This document shows, one piece after another, positions 910 to 8,129 of a stretch of DNA of 64,000 nt (the stretch's first letter is position 1; each line of letters opens with the position of its first letter). The position numbers and the translations under genes are program-made. The DNA is taken from NCBI RefSeq assembly GCF_009765165.1, contig NZ_VLNU01000001.1, forward strand, positions 1,550,001-1,614,000. The letters run 5' to 3'. The notes below the pieces were generated by a model. It had not been told where the DNA came from, made no database searches, and saw only the letters and a list, made by a program, of their open reading frames with translations. The DNA comes from Lysobacter panacisoli (lineage in GTDB: Bacteria > Pseudomonadota > Gammaproteobacteria > Xanthomonadales > Xanthomonadaceae).

Positions 910-1542
910 ATGAAGACCGTGCTGGTGGCCAGTTCCAAGGGGGGCGTGGGCAAGACCACGATCGCCACGCACCTCGCCGCACAATCGGCGCTCGACGGCC
1001 TGCGCACCGCGCTCGTCGACGCCGATCCGCAGGAATCCTCGACGCGCTGGGCGCAGCGGCGCGCGGTCCTCGACAGCGCCGTGCTCCCGCTCGACGGCAC
1101 CCGCCGCAAGGCGTGGCGCAAGCAGCTGCCCGACGACACCCAGCGCCTGATCATCGATGCGCCCGCCGGTTCGATGGCGGACGACCTGGAGAACTTCCTC
1201 GAAACCGCCGACGCGGTGGTCGTGCCAGTGCAGCCGTCGGCGCTCGACATCGAAGCCACCGTGCCGTTCCTCGACTCCCTCGCCAAGCATCCGCGCGTCC
1301 GCCGCGGCCAGTTGCGGGTAGGGCTGGTGGGAAACAAGCTCAAGCCGTGGACCCATGCCTCGCAGCAGGCGATGGAACTGCTCGGCGCGTGGCCCTATCC
1401 GGTGGTGGCCCGACTGCGCGACAGCCAGGCCTACGTAATGCTGACCGGACTGGGAAAAAGCCTCTTCGACTACCACTCCGCCCAGGTGCGCGAGCACCAG
1501 GAGGACTGGGAGCCTTTGCTGAAGTGGTTGAAGAAAGCCTGA
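910..1542 (+). CDS. Solitary ParA/MinD-type P-loop ATPase
   Basis: This 210-residue ParA-superfamily ATPase carries a deviant Walker A motif SKGGVGKTT at residues 9-17 and an 'IIDAPAG' segment in the Walker B position. ATG 910 is chosen because it follows a GAGGGGAGT ribosome-binding site and starts exactly at the canonical '[12 protein letters not shown]'. No parB, minC/E or plasmid replication gene is adjacent, so this resembles orphan ParA proteins that position cargo or regulate a process, rather than a chromosome-partition ParA. Its partner and cargo are unknown. The gene is short compared with chromosomal ParA (about 260 residues) and lacks an N-terminal DNA-binding extension. Confidence 0.88.
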
Positions 1543-2078: not shown

Positions 2079-2683
2079 CCGTCCGATCCAGGCACCCGGT
2101 CCTTGTACTGCTGTGCGCACTGTCGGCCTGTCCGGCGGTCGCGCAATCGCCTGATGTGCCCGTGCCGGAAGCGGCGGGCGTATCGATCAGTCCCTTCGAT
2201 CCTGCCCACACCCGCTTCGGCTTCGAACTGCGCACGCGCTGGGGCCAGCGCGTCGCCGGTACCTTCCCGCGTTACGAGGGCGACGTGACCACGCTGGCCG
2301 ACGGTCGCCACCGGGTGCGCATCGTGCTGCGCACCGATGGCGTCGTCGTCGAAGGCTCCGAGCGCTACACCGCGCTCGCGCGCGGTCCCAGCTTCTTCGA
2401 CGCCGCCCGCTATCCGTACATCGAATTCGTGTCCGATCCGCATCCCGAATCCCTGATCCACACCGGCGGTCGCATGCGCGGCCGGCTGTCCATGCACGGC
2501 GTCAGCCGCATGGAAGTGTTCTACCTGTCGGAACCCGAGTGCGACGCGCCGGGCCGTGAATGCGACGTGGTCGCCGGCGGCAGCATCAGCCGCGAGGACT
2601 ATTCGCTGGACGGCTGGCAGTTCGCGCTGGTGGACCGCGTGCGGTTCAGCATGCGCGTGCGCGTGGTGGAGCCGGCTCCATGA
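2075..2683 (+). CDS. YceI-family periplasmic protein
   Basis: This 202-residue protein starts with a clear signal peptide (TVRSRHPVLVLLCALSACPAVAQ, expected cleavage after AVAQ). A YceI-like lipocalin fold follows: 'DPAHTRFGFELRTRWGQRVAGTFPRYEG' style N-terminus, a central 'FFDAARYPYIEF' strand pair and a late 'SMHGVSRMEVFYL' segment. YceI proteins bind isoprenoid or amphiphilic ligands in the periplasm. GTG 2075 is chosen because it overlaps the sixA stop (GTGA); an in-frame GTG at 2069 is also possible. The stop overlaps the ATG of the downstream phospholipase-D-like gene, so the three genes are probably translationally coupled. Confidence 0.8.
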   Translation: MTVRSRHPVLVLLCALSACPAVAQSPDVPVPEAAGVSISPFDPAHTRFGFELRTRWGQRVAGTFPRYEGDVTTLADGRHRVRIVLRTDGVVVEGSERYTALARGPSFFDAARYPYIEFVSDPHPESLIHTGGRMRGRLSMHGVSRMEVFYLSEPECDAPGRECDVVAGGSISREDYSLDGWQFALVDRVRFSMRVRVVEPAP

Positions 2684-4698
2684 GCTTGACCCAGCGTGCC
2701 GTCCTGGCGCTGCTTGCCCTTGCACTGAGTGCCTGCGCCTCGCTCTCCAACGCCCAGCGCGACCGCGCTTCGGAGATCGTGGTGGCCGCGCGCTCGACCC
2801 AGGTCGAATGCGAGCGCCGCGACGCCTGTGCGCAGCCCTCGCCGCTGCGCGCGCTGGCCGCGCGTGCCTTCGCCGAATCCACGCCGGAACAGCCGCGCCA
2901 TTACGCGCTGATCCTCGATCGTGGTCCGGACGCGCTGCTCGCGCGCGTCAACCTGATCCGCAGCGCGACCACCGCGATCGACCTGCAGACCTACATCTTC
3001 GACGAGGACGACGCCGGGCGGCTGGTGCTCGACGAACTGCTCGCGGCGGCGCGACGTGGCGTGCGCGTGCGCGTGCTGATCGACCAGCTCTCCGCGCTCA
3101 AGCACATCGACACACTGGCGGCACTCGCCGGCGCGCACGTCAACTTCGAGCTGAAGCTGTACAGCCCGGTTCTCGGTCGTGCGCAGATCAGCTATCCGCA
3201 GTACGCGCTGGCCGCCGCGTGCTGCTGGCGCACGCTCAACCAGCGCATGCACACCAAGCTGCTGCTGATCGACGGCGCGGTCGGCATCACCGGCGGACGG
3301 AACTACCAGGACGACTATTACGACTGGGACGACGAGTACAACTTCCGCGATCGCGACCTGCTCGTGGCCGGTCCGGTCGCGCGGGTGATGGGCGAGGACT
3401 TCGCGCTGTTCTGGAACGATCGACGCAGCACGCCGGTGGAGCGCCTCAACGATGTCGGCGGCCGCGTCCTCTCCGGCGGCGTGCCAGCGTTGCCGGCGAT
3501 GAAGTTCGAACGCCCCGAGCGCGCGCTGGCGATGCTGGCCGACGCCAGCGACGGAGCTCTGGTCGAGGAGCGGCTGGTACAACAGGCGTTGCCAGTGGGC
3601 GCGGTGCGCTACATCTCCGACACGCCGGAAAAACATGCGGCGGTGAACGCCGAGCAGCAGGCCGTCGCATCCGGTTCGCTGCGCAGCCTGATCGAATCCG
3701 CCCAGGACGAAGTGATCCTGCAGACGCCGTACCTGGTGTTGTCGGATGCGGCGCAGGAGATGTTCCGCGGCCTGCACCAGCGTCCGCGCGAACAGCGTCC
3801 GCGCGTGATCATCTCGACCAACAGCCTCGCCGCGACCGACGCCTTCATCGCGTACGCGCTGTCGTACAAGTACAAGCGCCGTTACCTGCGCGAGTTCGGA
3901 TTCAACATCTTCGAATACAAGCCGTTTCCGCGGGACGCACCGATCGACGTGGCCACCACGGGCGCGACACTGCCCGACCTCGACACGGACGAGGCCTCCA
4001 GCGCCGACCCGGGCACTGTGTCGCCATCGCGCGCGCTCGCGGGCGAAAGCGGCACGCCGCCGTCGGCCGAGTCGTTGAAGCAGACTCGCCGCGAGCTGCG
4101 CAACCAGTACGATCGCAGCAGTGTCGTCGAGCGCGAGCAATACCGGCGCGCGCTGTCGCGCGAGTACACCGCGCTGCGCTACAGCACGCGCGGCGCCAAC
4201 CGGCCGGTGCCGCTGGAGCGCGCCGGCGTGCGCATCGGCCTGCACGCCAAGTCGATGGTGATCGACGAGAAGATCGGCGTGGTCGGCACGCACAACTTCG
4301 ATCCGCGCGGCGACCACTACAACACCGAGAGCGCGGTGGTGATCGAGGACCCCGCGTTCGCGCAGGCGCTGGCGGCGAGCATCCGCCGCGACATGGAGCC
4401 GGCCAACTCGTGGGTGATCGCACGGCGCGACAAGCCGCCGGTGTTCTCGGGCCTGGATTACTCGATCGGCAAGATGTTCGAGGCGATGCCGGTGTTCGAC
4501 CTGTGGCCGATGCGCTACGCCACCAGCTACGAGTTCGTGCCCGGCCCCGAATGCCCGGAGCCGTTGCTGCCGAGCGATCCGGGTTTCCGCGCGTGCTACA
4601 CGCCGGTCGGCGATTTTCCGGAAGTTTCCGCTGGCCTGAAGGGCGTCACCACGCGCATCTTCACCGCCTTCGGCGCAGGACTCGCGCCGATCCTCTGA
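2680..4698 (+). CDS. Phospholipase D / cardiolipin synthase-like lipoprotein
   Basis: This 672-residue protein carries two HKD motifs, at His191 (HTKLLLIDG, then GGRN) and His522 (HAKSMVIDEKIGVVGTHNFD). That is the arrangement of PLD-superfamily enzymes such as cardiolipin synthases. The N-terminus has a lipobox (LSAC, Cys19), so the enzyme is probably a lipoprotein facing the periplasm. It is longer than ClsA/ClsB, mainly through a charged insert around residues 425-500 between the two catalytic halves. ATG 2680 overlaps the YceI stop (ATGA). Substrate and reaction (transphosphatidylation or hydrolysis) are not determinable. The window has a second PLD protein at 23201, of ClsB type. Confidence 0.85.
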   Translation: MSLTQRAVLALLALALSACASLSNAQRDRASEIVVAARSTQVECERRDACAQPSPLRALAARAFAESTPEQPRHYALILDRGPDALLARVNLIRSATTAIDLQTYIFDEDDAGRLVLDELLAAARRGVRVRVLIDQLSALKHIDTLAALAGAHVNFELKLYSPVLGRAQISYPQYALAAACCWRTLNQRMHTKLLLIDGAVGITGGRNYQDDYYDWDDEYNFRDRDLLVAGPVARVMGEDFALFWNDRRSTPVERLNDVGGRVLSGGVPALPAMKFERPERALAMLADASDGALVEERLVQQALPVGAVRYISDTPEKHAAVNAEQQAVASGSLRSLIESAQDEVILQTPYLVLSDAAQEMFRGLHQRPREQRPRVIISTNSLAATDAFIAYALSYKYKRRYLREFGFNIFEYKPFPRDAPIDVATTGATLPDLDTDEASSADPGTVSPSRALAGESGTPPSAESLKQTRRELRNQYDRSSVVEREQYRRALSREYTALRYSTRGANRPVPLERAGVRIGLHAKSMVIDEKIGVVGTHNFDPRGDHYNTESAVVIEDPAFAQALAASIRRDMEPANSWVIARRDKPPVFSGLDYSIGKMFEAMPVFDLWPMRYATSYEFVPGPECPEPLLPSDPGFRACYTPVGDFPEVSAGLKGVTTRIFTAFGAGLAPIL

Positions 4699-5057
4699 CC
4701 TGAGGGTGCCGTTCGCGGGTGTTCCGTCGCCCGTGTGTGGACCGCTTTTGCGCAGTGGCCGCTGCGGCCCCCATCCCGGCCTGCCTGTTCAGGCCGATGA
4801 ACGTGACGCTGGTCACTCTGGCTGACGACCCAAGCCCGGCCCGGGAGGCGTCATCGCGGGTCCGGCGAGGCGACCCCTGCCATCAGTCATGGCAACGCTT
4901 CGCCAGAAATAGCTATCTATATCAGCAAGTTCCGGCTGCGGCCGCACCCCTGGCAAGTAGGTCTTCGGTGGGGTGACTTCTGGCCCATGTTGGAAATGAT
5001 CTGGTGTTGTACTTTACCAACACACCAAGTCACACCCCCACTGACAAGGACACCGCC
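4699..5057 (+). other. 359-bp spacer before the tandem small-protein genes
   Basis: I see no convincing gene here. The last 150 bp are clearly more A+T-rich than the surroundings (for example around AAATAGCTATCTATATCAG), which suits a promoter region for the 61-residue protein genes that follow. A purine-rich ACAAGGA at 5044-5050 is a plausible ribosome-binding site for the ATG at 5058. Confidence 0.5.
5003..5024. promoter_or_regulatory. Short inverted repeat upstream of small-protein genes (possible operator)
   Basis: GTGTTG and CAACAC flank an 8-base centre (TACTTTAC), about 35 bp upstream of the first 61-residue gene. A loose TTGGAA sits just upstream. It could be an operator or part of a promoter; the symmetry is short and may be chance. 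Confidence 0.25.
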
Positions 5058-5243
5058 ATGAACGCTCTTCGCACCTTCTCCGCCTCGTTTGCCAAGTCCG
5101 CCAAGGTTCCGCCGGCCGTCCTGGCCAATGCCCGCGCCCACCGTGAACGCGACTTCGGCGTCGGCTACGGCAACAGCTCCGGCTACGCCAGCAACCGCCG
5201 CTACACGTCCGAGTGGGCGCCGCCGCGCTTCCGCTTTGCCTGA
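5058..5243 (+). CDS. 61-residue protein with RDFGVGYGNSSGY core, copy 1
   Basis: I do not recognise a characterised function. ATG 5058 follows ACAAGGA at 7 bp. The protein has a variable, Ala/Ser-rich N-terminal half without a clear signal peptide. Its C-terminal half (HRERDFGVGYGNSSGY onward) is nearly identical to that of the next gene, including NRRY, a Trp and the terminal PRFRxA. Both proteins are exactly 61 residues, start with MNA and are separated by 34 bp. The core is rich in Gly, Tyr, Phe and Arg with no cysteines. It could be a small structural or nucleic-acid-associated protein or a peptide precursor; none of these is shown. Confidence 0.7.
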   Translation: MNALRTFSASFAKSAKVPPAVLANARAHRERDFGVGYGNSSGYASNRRYTSEWAPPRFRFA

Positions 5244-5277
5244 CCCACCGCACCACCCGCCACAGCAGGAAATCGCC

Positions 5278-5463
5278 ATGAACGCCTCCCGTCCCAGCCC
5301 GAACGCTTCCGCCCCCAGCGCCCGCTCCAACGTGATCCCCCTGCCGGAGCGCCACATCCATCGCGATCGTGATTTCGGCGTCGGCTACGGCAACAGCAGC
5401 GGTTACGCCGCCAACCGCCGCTATGCCCAGGACTGGATGCAGCCCCGTTTCCGCTGCGCATGA
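5278..5463 (+). CDS. 61-residue protein with RDFGVGYGNSSGY core, copy 2
   Basis: Paralogue of the preceding gene with identical length and the same 3' half (RDRDFGVGYGNSSGYA, NRRY, W, QPRFRCA). The first 27 residues differ except for MNA, an Arg at position 5 and scattered small residues, so the C-terminal half is the selected part. A CAGCAGGA ribosome-binding site lies just upstream of the ATG. It carries one Cys, at position 60, where copy 1 has Phe. The two genes are probably co-transcribed and followed by the hairpin at 5531-5594. Function unknown. Confidence 0.7.
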   Translation: MNASRPSPNASAPSARSNVIPLPERHIHRDRDFGVGYGNSSGYAANRRYAQDWMQPRFRCA

Positions 5464-5530
5464 GCCGTCGCCAGCGACCCATGCGTGATTCCCACCCCCA
5501 GAACCACGGCAACGCTCTCTCTTTCCCCCT

Positions 5531-5594
5531 GGCCCGGACCCGGCGCGTCGGTCTCTCTCCGTAACCGCGCACCGGCTCCCGGGCCCCTTTTTTT
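5531..5594 (+). terminator. Probable terminator after the small-protein pair
   Basis: GGCCCGG near 5531 can pair with CCGGGCC ending near 5586, followed by seven T (5588-5594). The loop is long, so the exact fold is uncertain, but the T-run after a G+C stem in this background suggests termination. Confidence 0.5.
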
Positions 5595-5652
5595 GCCGGC
5601 CGCCACGCCCTTCCGACTGGCCGCCGCCCGCGACCGCCGCTAAGGTGGCGCG

Positions 5653-6099
5653 ATGAGCGACACACCCCACGCCCCCCGCTCGCCGTTCCGCGGCACGCCC
5701 CGTCTCGACGATCTCAACGCGCTCTCGCGCGGCACCGCGATGGAGCCGCTGGGCATCGTGTTCACCGAGGTCGGTTTCGATTTCGTCCGCGCGACCATGC
5801 CGGTCGATGAACGCACCCGTCAGCCCTATGGCCTGCTCCACGGCGGCGCATCGGTCCTGCTCGCCGAAACGCTGGGCAGCAGCGCCGGTAACCTGAGCGT
5901 CGGCGACGGCGAGGTCTGCGTCGGCATCGAGATCAACGCCAACCACGTGCGCGCCGTGCGCGAAGGCCTGGTCACCGGGACCGCGCGTCCGCTGCACGTG
6001 GGCAGTCGTACCCAGGTATGGGAAATCCGCATCGAGGACGAACGCGGCCGGCTCGTGTGCATCTCGCGGATCACGCTCGCGGTGGTCGCGCGCGACTGA
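5653..6099 (+). CDS. Hotdog-fold PaaI-type acyl-CoA thioesterase
   Basis: This 148-residue hotdog-fold protein of the PaaI / EntH / MenI group hydrolyses acyl-CoA or aryl-CoA thioesters. Family signatures are 'MPVDERTRQPYGLLHGGASVLLAETLGS' (the helix-capping HGG with the catalytic acidic residue in AETLGS), 'GIEINANHVRA' and 'GTARPLHVGSRTQVWEI'. It is soluble and presumably cytoplasmic. The substrate cannot be assigned; the DHNA-CoA thioesterase role of the close relative MenI is unlikely to be inferable here because no men genes are visible. It stands alone, with plsC about 100 bp downstream on the same strand. Confidence 0.85.
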   Translation: MSDTPHAPRSPFRGTPRLDDLNALSRGTAMEPLGIVFTEVGFDFVRATMPVDERTRQPYGLLHGGASVLLAETLGSSAGNLSVGDGEVCVGIEINANHVRAVREGLVTGTARPLHVGSRTQVWEIRIEDERGRLVCISRITLAVVARD

Positions 6100-6201
6100 A
6101 CCGGCCTGCGCGCGCCGTCCGGGCAATGCGCCTGCGTATTCACCACTGTGTGTCGTTGCCGGCGCTGGTCGCGACGGCGGCGCTTCGGTATCTTGCATTC
6201 A

Positions 6202-7008
6202 ATGAATGCGCCGTCCCCCCACGCCGGCGCGACGGCGCCGACCACGGCGCCCGCCGCGCGCGCGCTCCGTTACCTCGTCCGCGTGCCGCTGCTGCTGTGG
6301 CACGTCGTCGTCGATCTGCCGCTGACCCTTATCTGGACCACGCCGCTCACCGTGGGCCTGCGCGTGGGCGACGAACCCATCGCCAATCGCGCGATCCGCG
6401 CCTGGTCGGCCGGGTTGATGTGGATCTTCGGCTTCCGCCTGCGCCGCTTCGGTGAGCCGTTGCCCGGCGCGGCGATGTTCGTCGCCAACCACGTCAGCTG
6501 GATCGACATCGAGACGCTGCACAGCCAGCGCATGATGGGTTTCGTCGCCAAGCGCGAGATCGCCAGCTGGCCGCTGGTCGGCTGGCTCGCCTCGCGCGGC
6601 GAGACGATCTTCCACTCGCGCGGCAGCACCGAATCGCTGGGCGGCGTACTGCACACGATGCTGGCGAGGCTGCGCGAGGGGCGTTCGGTCGGCGTCTTCC
6701 CCGAAGGCGGCACCCGTGGCGGCCGCGAGATCGGCCCGTTCCATGCGCGCATCTTCCTGGCCGCGGTCGAGGCCGGCGTGCCGGTGCAGCCGGTCGCGCT
6801 GCGCTACGGCGAGGGCGGCGACGCCCAGCAGGTGGTCGCGTTCCAGCCGGGCGAAAGCTTCCTGGCCAATTTCCTCCGCCTGCTCGGTGAACCGGCGCGC
6901 CTGGCCGAGGTCCATTTCCTGGAACCCATCCTGCCCGGCGAGGCCGATGGCCGCCGGCGCATCGCCGAGCTGGCGCGCGCGCGCATCGTCGAGGCGATGA
7001 CCAGCTGA
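6202..7008 (+). CDS. plsC: 1-acylglycerol-3-phosphate O-acyltransferase (PlsC family)
   Basis: This 268-residue membrane acyltransferase carries the NHxxxxD catalytic motif (NHVSWID, His97) and the phosphate-binding FPEGGTR at residues 166-172. Two hydrophobic stretches (about residues 22-50 and 65-80) precede the catalytic domain, consistent with inner-membrane anchoring. The reaction expected for the family is acylation of lysophosphatidic acid to phosphatidic acid; some relatives act on ornithine lipids. ATG 6202 is chosen as the start of the proline/alanine-rich N-terminus, since upstream codons encode arginine-rich non-membrane sequence. Confidence 0.86.
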   Translation: MNAPSPHAGATAPTTAPAARALRYLVRVPLLLWHVVVDLPLTLIWTTPLTVGLRVGDEPIANRAIRAWSAGLMWIFGFRLRRFGEPLPGAAMFVANHVSWIDIETLHSQRMMGFVAKREIASWPLVGWLASRGETIFHSRGSTESLGGVLHTMLARLREGRSVGVFPEGGTRGGREIGPFHARIFLAAVEAGVPVQPVALRYGEGGDAQQVVAFQPGESFLANFLRLLGEPARLAEVHFLEPILPGEADGRRRIAELARARIVEAMTS

Positions 7009-7118
7009 ATCGCGGGCGCGCGCGGCAGGGTTCGACGCCCGCCTGCGTTGTAACGGACATGGGGATTTCACGAATCGCGCATGAAGCTCCTGCTTAAGCT
7101 GTCCAGAGGCCGAGACTT

Positions 7119-8129
7119 ATGTTGCTGGTGTCCACGCCGATGCTGACCGTCGCCGATTACCAACCCCCGAGCTGGCTGCGCAACGCGCACGTCCAGTCGG
7201 TGCTGGGGTCCAGCCTGCTGCGCCGGCGGCACGGCGAACGCAGTCTCGCCGCGCTCGGCGCGGTGCATACCGACCACATCGTCGATGCCGGCGATGGCGT
7301 GCGCCTGCAGGGCGTGCACAGCGCAATGCCCGACACGCCCACGCGCGGACTCGTGCTGCTGCTGCACGGCTGGGAGGGCAGCGTCGATTCCAGTTACATG
7401 CGGCTGACCGCGGTCGAACTCCTGCGCGCGGGCTTCGAAGTGTTCCGCCTGAACTTCCGCGATCACGGCGGCACCCACCACCTCAACGAAGGCCTGTTCC
7501 ATTCCAACCGCATCGACGAGGTCGTGCGCGCCGCGACCGAAGTGGCGCGGCGTTTCCCGGGTCATCCGATGGCGGTCGCCGGCTACTCGCTCGGCGGCAA
7601 CTTCGCGCTGCGGCTGGCGTTGCGCGCGCCGGACGCGGGCCTGCAACTGGCCCACGTCGCCGCGGTGTGCCCGGTGCTCGATCCGGCGAGCACGATGGAT
7701 TCGATGGAACACGGCCTGCCGCTGTACCTGTGGTATTTCGAGCGCAAGTGGCGCGGCTCGCTGGCGCGCAAGCGCGAGCTGTTCCCGCAGACGCACGCGT
7801 TCGACGACAACGTCCTGGGCCTGCGCATGCGTCCGCTCACGCAGTGGATGGTCGAGCGCCACACCGACTTCGGCACGCTGGAACGCTACTTCGACGGTTA
7901 CTCCATCGCCGGCGACCGTCTCTCCGCGCTGCAGGTACCGGCCAGCATCCTGATGGCCGAGGACGATCCGGTGATCCCGGTCGACACCTTCCGCGTGTTG
8001 CGCCTGCCGAACGGGGCGCGTCTGGAAATCTCGCCGTGGGGCGGCCACTGCGGCTTCCTGCAGAGCGCGCGATTGGACGGTTTCGCCGAGCGCTGGATCG
8101 CGCGGCGGGTGCTGGAAGCGATCGACTGA
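7119..8129 (+). CDS. YheT-type alpha/beta-fold hydrolase
   Basis: This 336-residue alpha/beta hydrolase is of the YheT/ABHD1-3 type. Visible features are the N-terminal 'PPSWLRNAHVQSVLGS' typical of the family, an oxyanion-hole region LLLHGWEGS, the nucleophile elbow GYSLGG (Ser157), a catalytic-acid candidate in EDDPVIP and the histidine in WGGHCGF. YheT relatives are esterases or lipases of uncertain physiological substrate. A second in-frame ATG at 7140 is an alternative start. It is not obviously in an operon with its neighbours. Confidence 0.88.
   Translation: MLLVSTPMLTVADYQPPSWLRNAHVQSVLGSSLLRRRHGERSLAALGAVHTDHIVDAGDGVRLQGVHSAMPDTPTRGLVLLLHGWEGSVDSSYMRLTAVELLRAGFEVFRLNFRDHGGTHHLNEGLFHSNRIDEVVRAATEVARRFPGHPMAVAGYSLGGNFALRLALRAPDAGLQLAHVAAVCPVLDPASTMDSMEHGLPLYLWYFERKWRGSLARKRELFPQTHAFDDNVLGLRMRPLTQWMVERHTDFGTLERYFDGYSIAGDRLSALQVPASILMAEDDPVIPVDTFRVLRLPNGARLEISPWGGHCGFLQSARLDGFAERWIARRVLEAID

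Follow-up and report, generated by a model that had tools for sequence, protein, structure and literature searches.

A family of small proteins in the Lysobacterales whose conserved core is related to the tail of a DUF1232/YkvA protein

The gene pair and its family

Two adjacent open reading frames of equal length, 61 codons each, lie near one end of the window (the whole 64,000-nucleotide stretch that was analysed), as the original prediction had described. To simplify the presentation below we refer to their products as microproteins, to their variable N-terminal part as the head and to their conserved C-terminal part as the core.

5058..5243, + strand: microprotein gene 1, 61 aa, open reading frame from ATG to TGA, matched by the family profile
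5278..5463, + strand: microprotein gene 2, 61 aa, open reading frame from ATG to TGA, matched by the family profile
5133..5240, + strand: conserved C-terminal core of gene 1 (core profile, E 1.2e-21)
5353..5460, + strand: conserved C-terminal core of gene 2 (core profile, E 2.1e-22)
5531..5594, + strand: probable intrinsic terminator, a GC stem followed by seven T (RNA fold of 5525-5597)

The 406-base stretch holding both genes has a single match in its own genome, which is itself. A gap-free alignment of the two proteins gives 34 identities over 61 residues, with 26 of 34 identical over residues 28-61 and 8 of 27 over the head (residues 1-27). The N-terminal halves are indeed unlike and the C-terminal 34 residues alike, although the earlier description of the latter as almost identical is slightly strong. 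The calculated pI values are 11.3 and 10.7 and the net charges about +6.6 and +4.7. The ribosome-binding sites that had been proposed are visible in the sequence as purine-rich aaggacaccgccATG and caggaaatcgccATG, and a terminator behind the pair is supported by folding, with a long GC stem at 5531-5585, then seven T, and -34.9 kcal/mol for the 5525-5597 segment. A terminator consensus scan, which covers loops of 3-8 only, detected none and missed the 5531-5594 candidate, and a sigma-70 consensus promoter scan of the locus was likewise negative.

A profile built from both proteins, which can also match the DUF1232 tails described below, has matches at E<=0.001 in 187 of 297 genomes of the same family (taken as Lysobacteraceae, as inferred from the named loci), spanning 41 of 54 genera, and in 662 database proteins. 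Homologues beyond this strain are thus abundant, and their presence in 187 of 297 genomes rules out chance open reading frames. Neither window frame has a match in Pfam or in NCBIfam up to E 10, so that the core belongs to no named family in either, as had been supposed, and the titles and abstract beginnings seen in the literature hold nothing about the microprotein family. The microproteins are a real, unnamed family.

The 63 named loci come from Lysobacter, Luteimonas, Thermomonas, Vulcaniibacterium, a Cupriavidus-labelled MAG and other MAGs; they were picked by exact core peptides, so that their invariant residues are partly selected for. With a core profile that includes DUF1232 tails, 38 of 299 order-wide genomes match at E<=0.01; five of these genomes belong to other families, and the weakest matches are probably noise. 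Among 369 class-wide genomes the same profile at E<=1e-4 finds only the genome of the window, and plasmids and phages searched with one member (P0005) as query gave no match; the family was found in one bacterial order only, the Lysobacterales. At E 0.001 the core profile finds just the two window frames and a DUF1232 protein in their own genome, which therefore has two microproteins and one tailed DUF1232 protein. A fourth match, considered as a further tail-bearing scaffold, was rejected as noise (E 8.45). Single copies occur at 44 of the 59 microprotein loci, two copies at 12 and three copies at three; tandem arrangement is optional (15 of 59), and copies do not always come in tandem as the original prediction had asked.

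Selection differs sharply between head and core. Pooled Nei-Gojobori estimates over 11 related loci give dN/dS of 0.27 for the core and 0.92 for the head of gene 1, and 0.13 and 0.84 respectively for gene 2. The core values are far below one and bear out the strong selection on a short Gly/Tyr/Arg core that had been proposed, with the head varying while the core is conserved. As pS in gene 2 is 0.34 in the core and 0.27 in the head, synonymous change in the core is not suppressed there, while in gene 1 it is lower in the core (0.26 against 0.38), and we read the constraint as acting mainly on the peptide. Row P0225 of alignment A4, with an odd C-terminus, was kept in.

The upstream element

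The A+T-rich leader of the gene pair holds a conserved 51-bp element (4974-5024) composed of a block TGACTTCYGGCMCAT followed by GTGTNNTANNNTACYANCACA.

4974..5024, + strand: conserved promoter-like element, left box TGACTTCTGGCCCA plus right box with TANNNT (genome-wide pattern)
5003..5026, + strand: right box GGTGTTGTACTTTACCAACACACC, an imperfect dyad over the putative -10 (pattern search)
5010..5015, + strand: putative -10 hexamer TACTTT (column counts; promoter role inferred)

TANNNT is invariant in 55 of 55 loci, conservation across these loci stops sharply at both ends of the element, and the starts of its two parts are 30 nt apart in 42 of them, 31 in 11 and 29 in two. We take the element to be a dedicated promoter whose -10 is TANNNT. 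A structured RNA leader was considered and rejected: despite a long hairpin in the window's own leader (-33.4 kcal/mol), the leader has no Rfam match up to E 1, and the 55 loci show no covariation and a consensus stem of only five pairs.

Matches to the element across genomes were not picked by core peptides, unlike the 63 named loci. At <=3 mismatches, 108 of 297 genomes contain the element pattern, with no match in the reversed control; it occurs once per genome save in G069 (three) and G110 (two). For the right box, again at <=3 mismatches, each of 12 genomes searched has a single match and the reversed control none. Thirty element loci were fetched; in 26 of 28 tested, an open reading frame with the motif lies within 500 bp downstream, and two further loci, in G222 (L205) and at L189, were positive on separate inspection. 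Degenerate versions of the family lie behind the element at L173 and L199, which make up the rest of the 28, and four genomes (G003, G055, G133 and G169) have the element and no profile match, yet encode degenerate family members there. A 3-mismatch match in G001 (L204) with no family frame behind it is probably due to chance.

The strict right-box pattern is missing from 11 of the 63 named loci, namely L085 and L091-L093, which have no microprotein, the scattered copies L052, L059, L081 and L094, the conserved-locus copies L062 and L064, and L042, where the box is present with one change. The left box at <=1 mismatch occurs once, at the microprotein locus, in 12 of 16 genomes; the remaining four, which have neither microprotein match nor element, contain only 2-mismatch left-box matches. 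Such 2-mismatch matches are not far above the reversed control, and the left box was rejected as a regulon marker. The element, occurring nearly always once per genome, could serve as a handle for fishing a putative regulator.

CRP/Clp-type class II promoter sites have the form TGTGA-N6-TCACA at class II distance. By our count a similar GTGA-N6-CMCA-like box is centred about 30 bp before TANNNT; the distance fits, but the right half-site is poor, often GCCCA. Unlike such a site, the central six bases of the box are conserved as well, and at <=1 mismatch the box was seen at this locus alone in the 16 genomes searched, with no regulon.

The core as a protein tail, and its genomic setting

Run against the loci, a microprotein profile also picked out the final ~36 residues of open frames of ~215 aa which carry a DUF1232 domain; of seven larger carriers or relatives searched, six contain PF06803. 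The window frames themselves have no DUF1232 domain (Pfam, up to E 10), and a DUF1232 protein used as query matches both of them via its tail only (E 3.1e-5 and 9.8e-5). An hhalign comparison of the microproteins with the DUF1232 tail covers 38 columns with a probability of 99.1 and E 8e-19. On this evidence the microprotein core is homologous to the tail at the C-terminus of a helical DUF1232/YkvA protein, in the tailed form found in the Lysobacterales, and so is not confined to small proteins. Titles and abstract beginnings in the literature gave no function for DUF1232/YkvA, and the part of PMC10924467 that was seen mentions a YkvA family gene only in passing. The microprotein family provides a genetic handle on DUF1232/YkvA.

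In the genome of the window the tailed DUF1232 gene lies at G000:C1:3147985-3148605, by our reading upstream of prfB, and its tail is more diverged. By eye, a run of palindromic CCCTCTCCC/GGGAGAGG repeats occupies L101 2126-2370 between this gene and the putative prfB.

Across the 297 genomes, according to presence lists compiled by hand, 99 have both a profile match and a tailed DUF1232 protein (called at E<=1e-30), 88 a profile match only, seven a tailed DUF1232 protein only and 103 neither. The co-occurrence has a Fisher p of 8e-18, uncorrected for phylogeny and inflated in so far as some profile matches may themselves be DUF1232 tails. As 88 of the 187 genomes have no tailed DUF1232 protein at that threshold, titrating the partner of DUF1232 cannot account for the entire function of the microproteins, and their persistence without the larger protein favours a third partner over simple competition.

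Outside the family, 15 genomes of the order were sampled, and the DUF1232 orthologues of all 15 are without the GYG box. In these proteins (C-termini in L095-L124) the basic stretch is kept, and many end in aromatic residues, e.g. WKPALFRFG, LFRFR or FSLF. Three genomes (G297, G308 and G309) have a microprotein with the GYG box and a DUF1232 protein without it, so that either the tail or the free gene may have come first.

The neighbourhood of the microproteins in the window was assigned by Pfam. A ParA-like ATPase, a histidine phosphatase and a PLD-family enzyme precede them, and a thioesterase, an acyltransferase and an alpha/beta hydrolase follow.

2677..4698, + strand: PLD-family enzyme, start codon provisional (PLDc_2, E 5.4e-30), a conserved neighbour
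5653..6099, + strand: 4HBT-type thioesterase (E 1.8e-18), a conserved neighbour

The ParA-like ATPase gene (window 910-1542), some 3.5 kb upstream, is also a member of the conserved neighbourhood. By our own count 48 of 59 microprotein loci retain at least one window neighbour. A tailed DUF1232 gene lies inside the same locus in 16 of the 63 named loci, mostly in Luteimonas and in varying orientation, and at L085, L091 and L093 it directly follows PLD with no microprotein between. In 3 of 15 other-family genomes (G307, G309 and G300) PLD lies within about 1.5 kb of a DUF1232 gene whose tail is without the GYG box. In 12 of 12 same-genus genomes none of nine neighbour queries matches near the DUF1232 gene, which must sit elsewhere there. 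Together these arrangements suggest an old PLD-DUF1232 pair that would have been joined later by the microprotein genes.

This setting bears on three alternative explanations. The first is that the cationic tail, with its Trp/Phe end, would attach to anionic phospholipid and act together with the PLD-family enzyme encoded next to it. In its favour can be cited the adjoining PLD-family enzyme, thioesterase and acyltransferase, conserved in most loci, and the occurrence of DUF1232 beside PLD in those three other-family genomes. However, 11 of the 59 loci are scattered without these neighbours, and lipid binding alone would not fix GYGxSSGY. We consider this explanation quite unlikely.

Arrest or regulatory leader peptides, in which the C-terminal ~35 residues would act in the exit tunnel and regulate the gene that follows, leaving the head unconstrained outside, would account for conservation that reaches the stop codon and for a nearly neutral head. 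The ribosome exit tunnel is about as long as the conserved C-terminal stretch of ~35 residues, and in an arrest peptide conservation up to the stop, as seen here, would be expected. The fixed downstream gene is missing here, however, the next gene being a microprotein, DUF1232, the thioesterase or others depending on the locus; the core also ends a DUF1232 protein of ~200 residues; and there is no conserved RNA structure in the upstream leader, the region covered by the covariation test. We regard this explanation as very improbable.

The least probable is a precursor of a modified or secreted peptide, one of the suggestions of the original prediction. In its favour, the genes are small, occur in tandem at some loci and are conserved towards the C-terminus. 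Against it, this conservation lies at the C-terminal end, the head is almost neutral (the dN/dS values above) and without leader-type conservation, no maturase, protease or exporter was found by Pfam among six neighbours scanned, and the same sequence forms the DUF1232 tail.

Possible role of the module

The AlphaFold2 model of a DUF1232 protein from Luteimonas has six helices, of which the sixth extends to residue 176, a mean pLDDT of 69 and values under 50 at residues 1-7, 173-194 and 200-203; for a microprotein the mean is 63 and DSSP assigned no elements. These models were built from alignments of only 44 and 27 sequences, and their low pLDDT is weak proof of disorder, although it is probable that the tail and the core are intrinsically disordered. 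Sequence searches of the PDB returned nothing for DUF1232 and two chance-level matches for the microproteins (E 0.71 and 3.2), and the DUF1232 model has no match by fold at E<=0.001.

We are almost certain of the anatomy of the system as described, that is the family, the common tail, the selective constraint on the module, its conserved locus and its own promoter-like element, all of which were computed directly. What we infer beyond it concerns disorder in the cell, binding, a partner and an effect of dose. The explanation we prefer, to which we give a probability of about 0.45, is that of a disordered linear binding module used both as a tail and as a free protein on one conserved partner. 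Both genes would encode free copies of a C-terminal module, approximately RxRDFGxGYGxSSGYxxxRxYxxxWxxxxFRx-end, that is cationic and Tyr/Arg-rich and recurs as the DUF1232/YkvA tail, in several lineages within the same locus. Its Tyr, Arg and aromatic residues would dock on a single conserved partner in the cell, most probably a protein. When carried as a tail, the module would bring the DUF1232 protein to this partner, and as a free microprotein it would make that same contact at a level governed by its own promoter, so as to occupy, co-assemble on or titrate the partner. An orphan motif has in this way become a defined, testable module, and a conserved, probably disordered tail has an independent life as a gene family across the Lysobacterales.

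A competing explanation is that the disordered Arg/Tyr/Gly-rich core binds RNA or drives sticker-type co-assembly, the microproteins then being RNA- or ribosome-associated proteins. In the core, Gly, Ser and Asn separate the Tyr, Arg and aromatic residues in the manner of a sticker grammar, and this spacing, the low-confidence models and the high pI and net charge all agree with this. Against it, the near-invariant GYGxSSGY positions suggest a specific contact over loose multivalency, and no RNA-binding domain is found by Pfam. The microproteins may associate with RNA, though as a full explanation we find this unlikely; RNA or condensate and lipid ligands lead among the specific alternatives, arrest and precursor peptides being disfavoured.

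Small proteins having one interaction domain in common with a larger protein are known as microProteins (miPs), and here too a small protein duplicates part of a larger one that its own genome encodes. Unlike miPs, the common part is a disordered tail, as predicted by the models, and not a folded domain, the hosts are bacterial, and the microproteins also occur without the larger protein.

Extending the preferred binding-module reading, we tentatively suggest that the module is produced in two forms, as the DUF1232 tail and as free proteins of ~60 residues, the latter from a private 51-bp promoter with a putative dedicated regulator, and that the dose of free tails would tune the occupancy of one core partner; this fuller version is distinctly less probable than the binding module itself. 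Counting against the best explanation are the 11 of 59 microprotein loci without any window neighbour (L052, L059, L063, L069-L072, L074, L077, L081 and L094), eight of which were looked at and, barring L052 and L059, have no obvious common neighbour. The L052 and L059 copies (about 4001-7182), which lie outside the conserved locus and have other heads and no 51-bp element, are both followed downstream by a LuxR-family regulator that contains an AAA ATPase domain.

Two further variants were seen among the loci fetched through the element. In genus g4 (G003, G055, G133 and G169; L200-L203) the core is degenerate, e.g. GYGRSQGYG, and a second small open reading frame follows with a different Arg/Tyr-rich end (MFRIS or FRVR). 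In 12 of the 30 fetched element loci (L176-L180, L182, L184-L188 and L190) the proteins have another conserved head, [FL]YRLFP, near the N-terminus.
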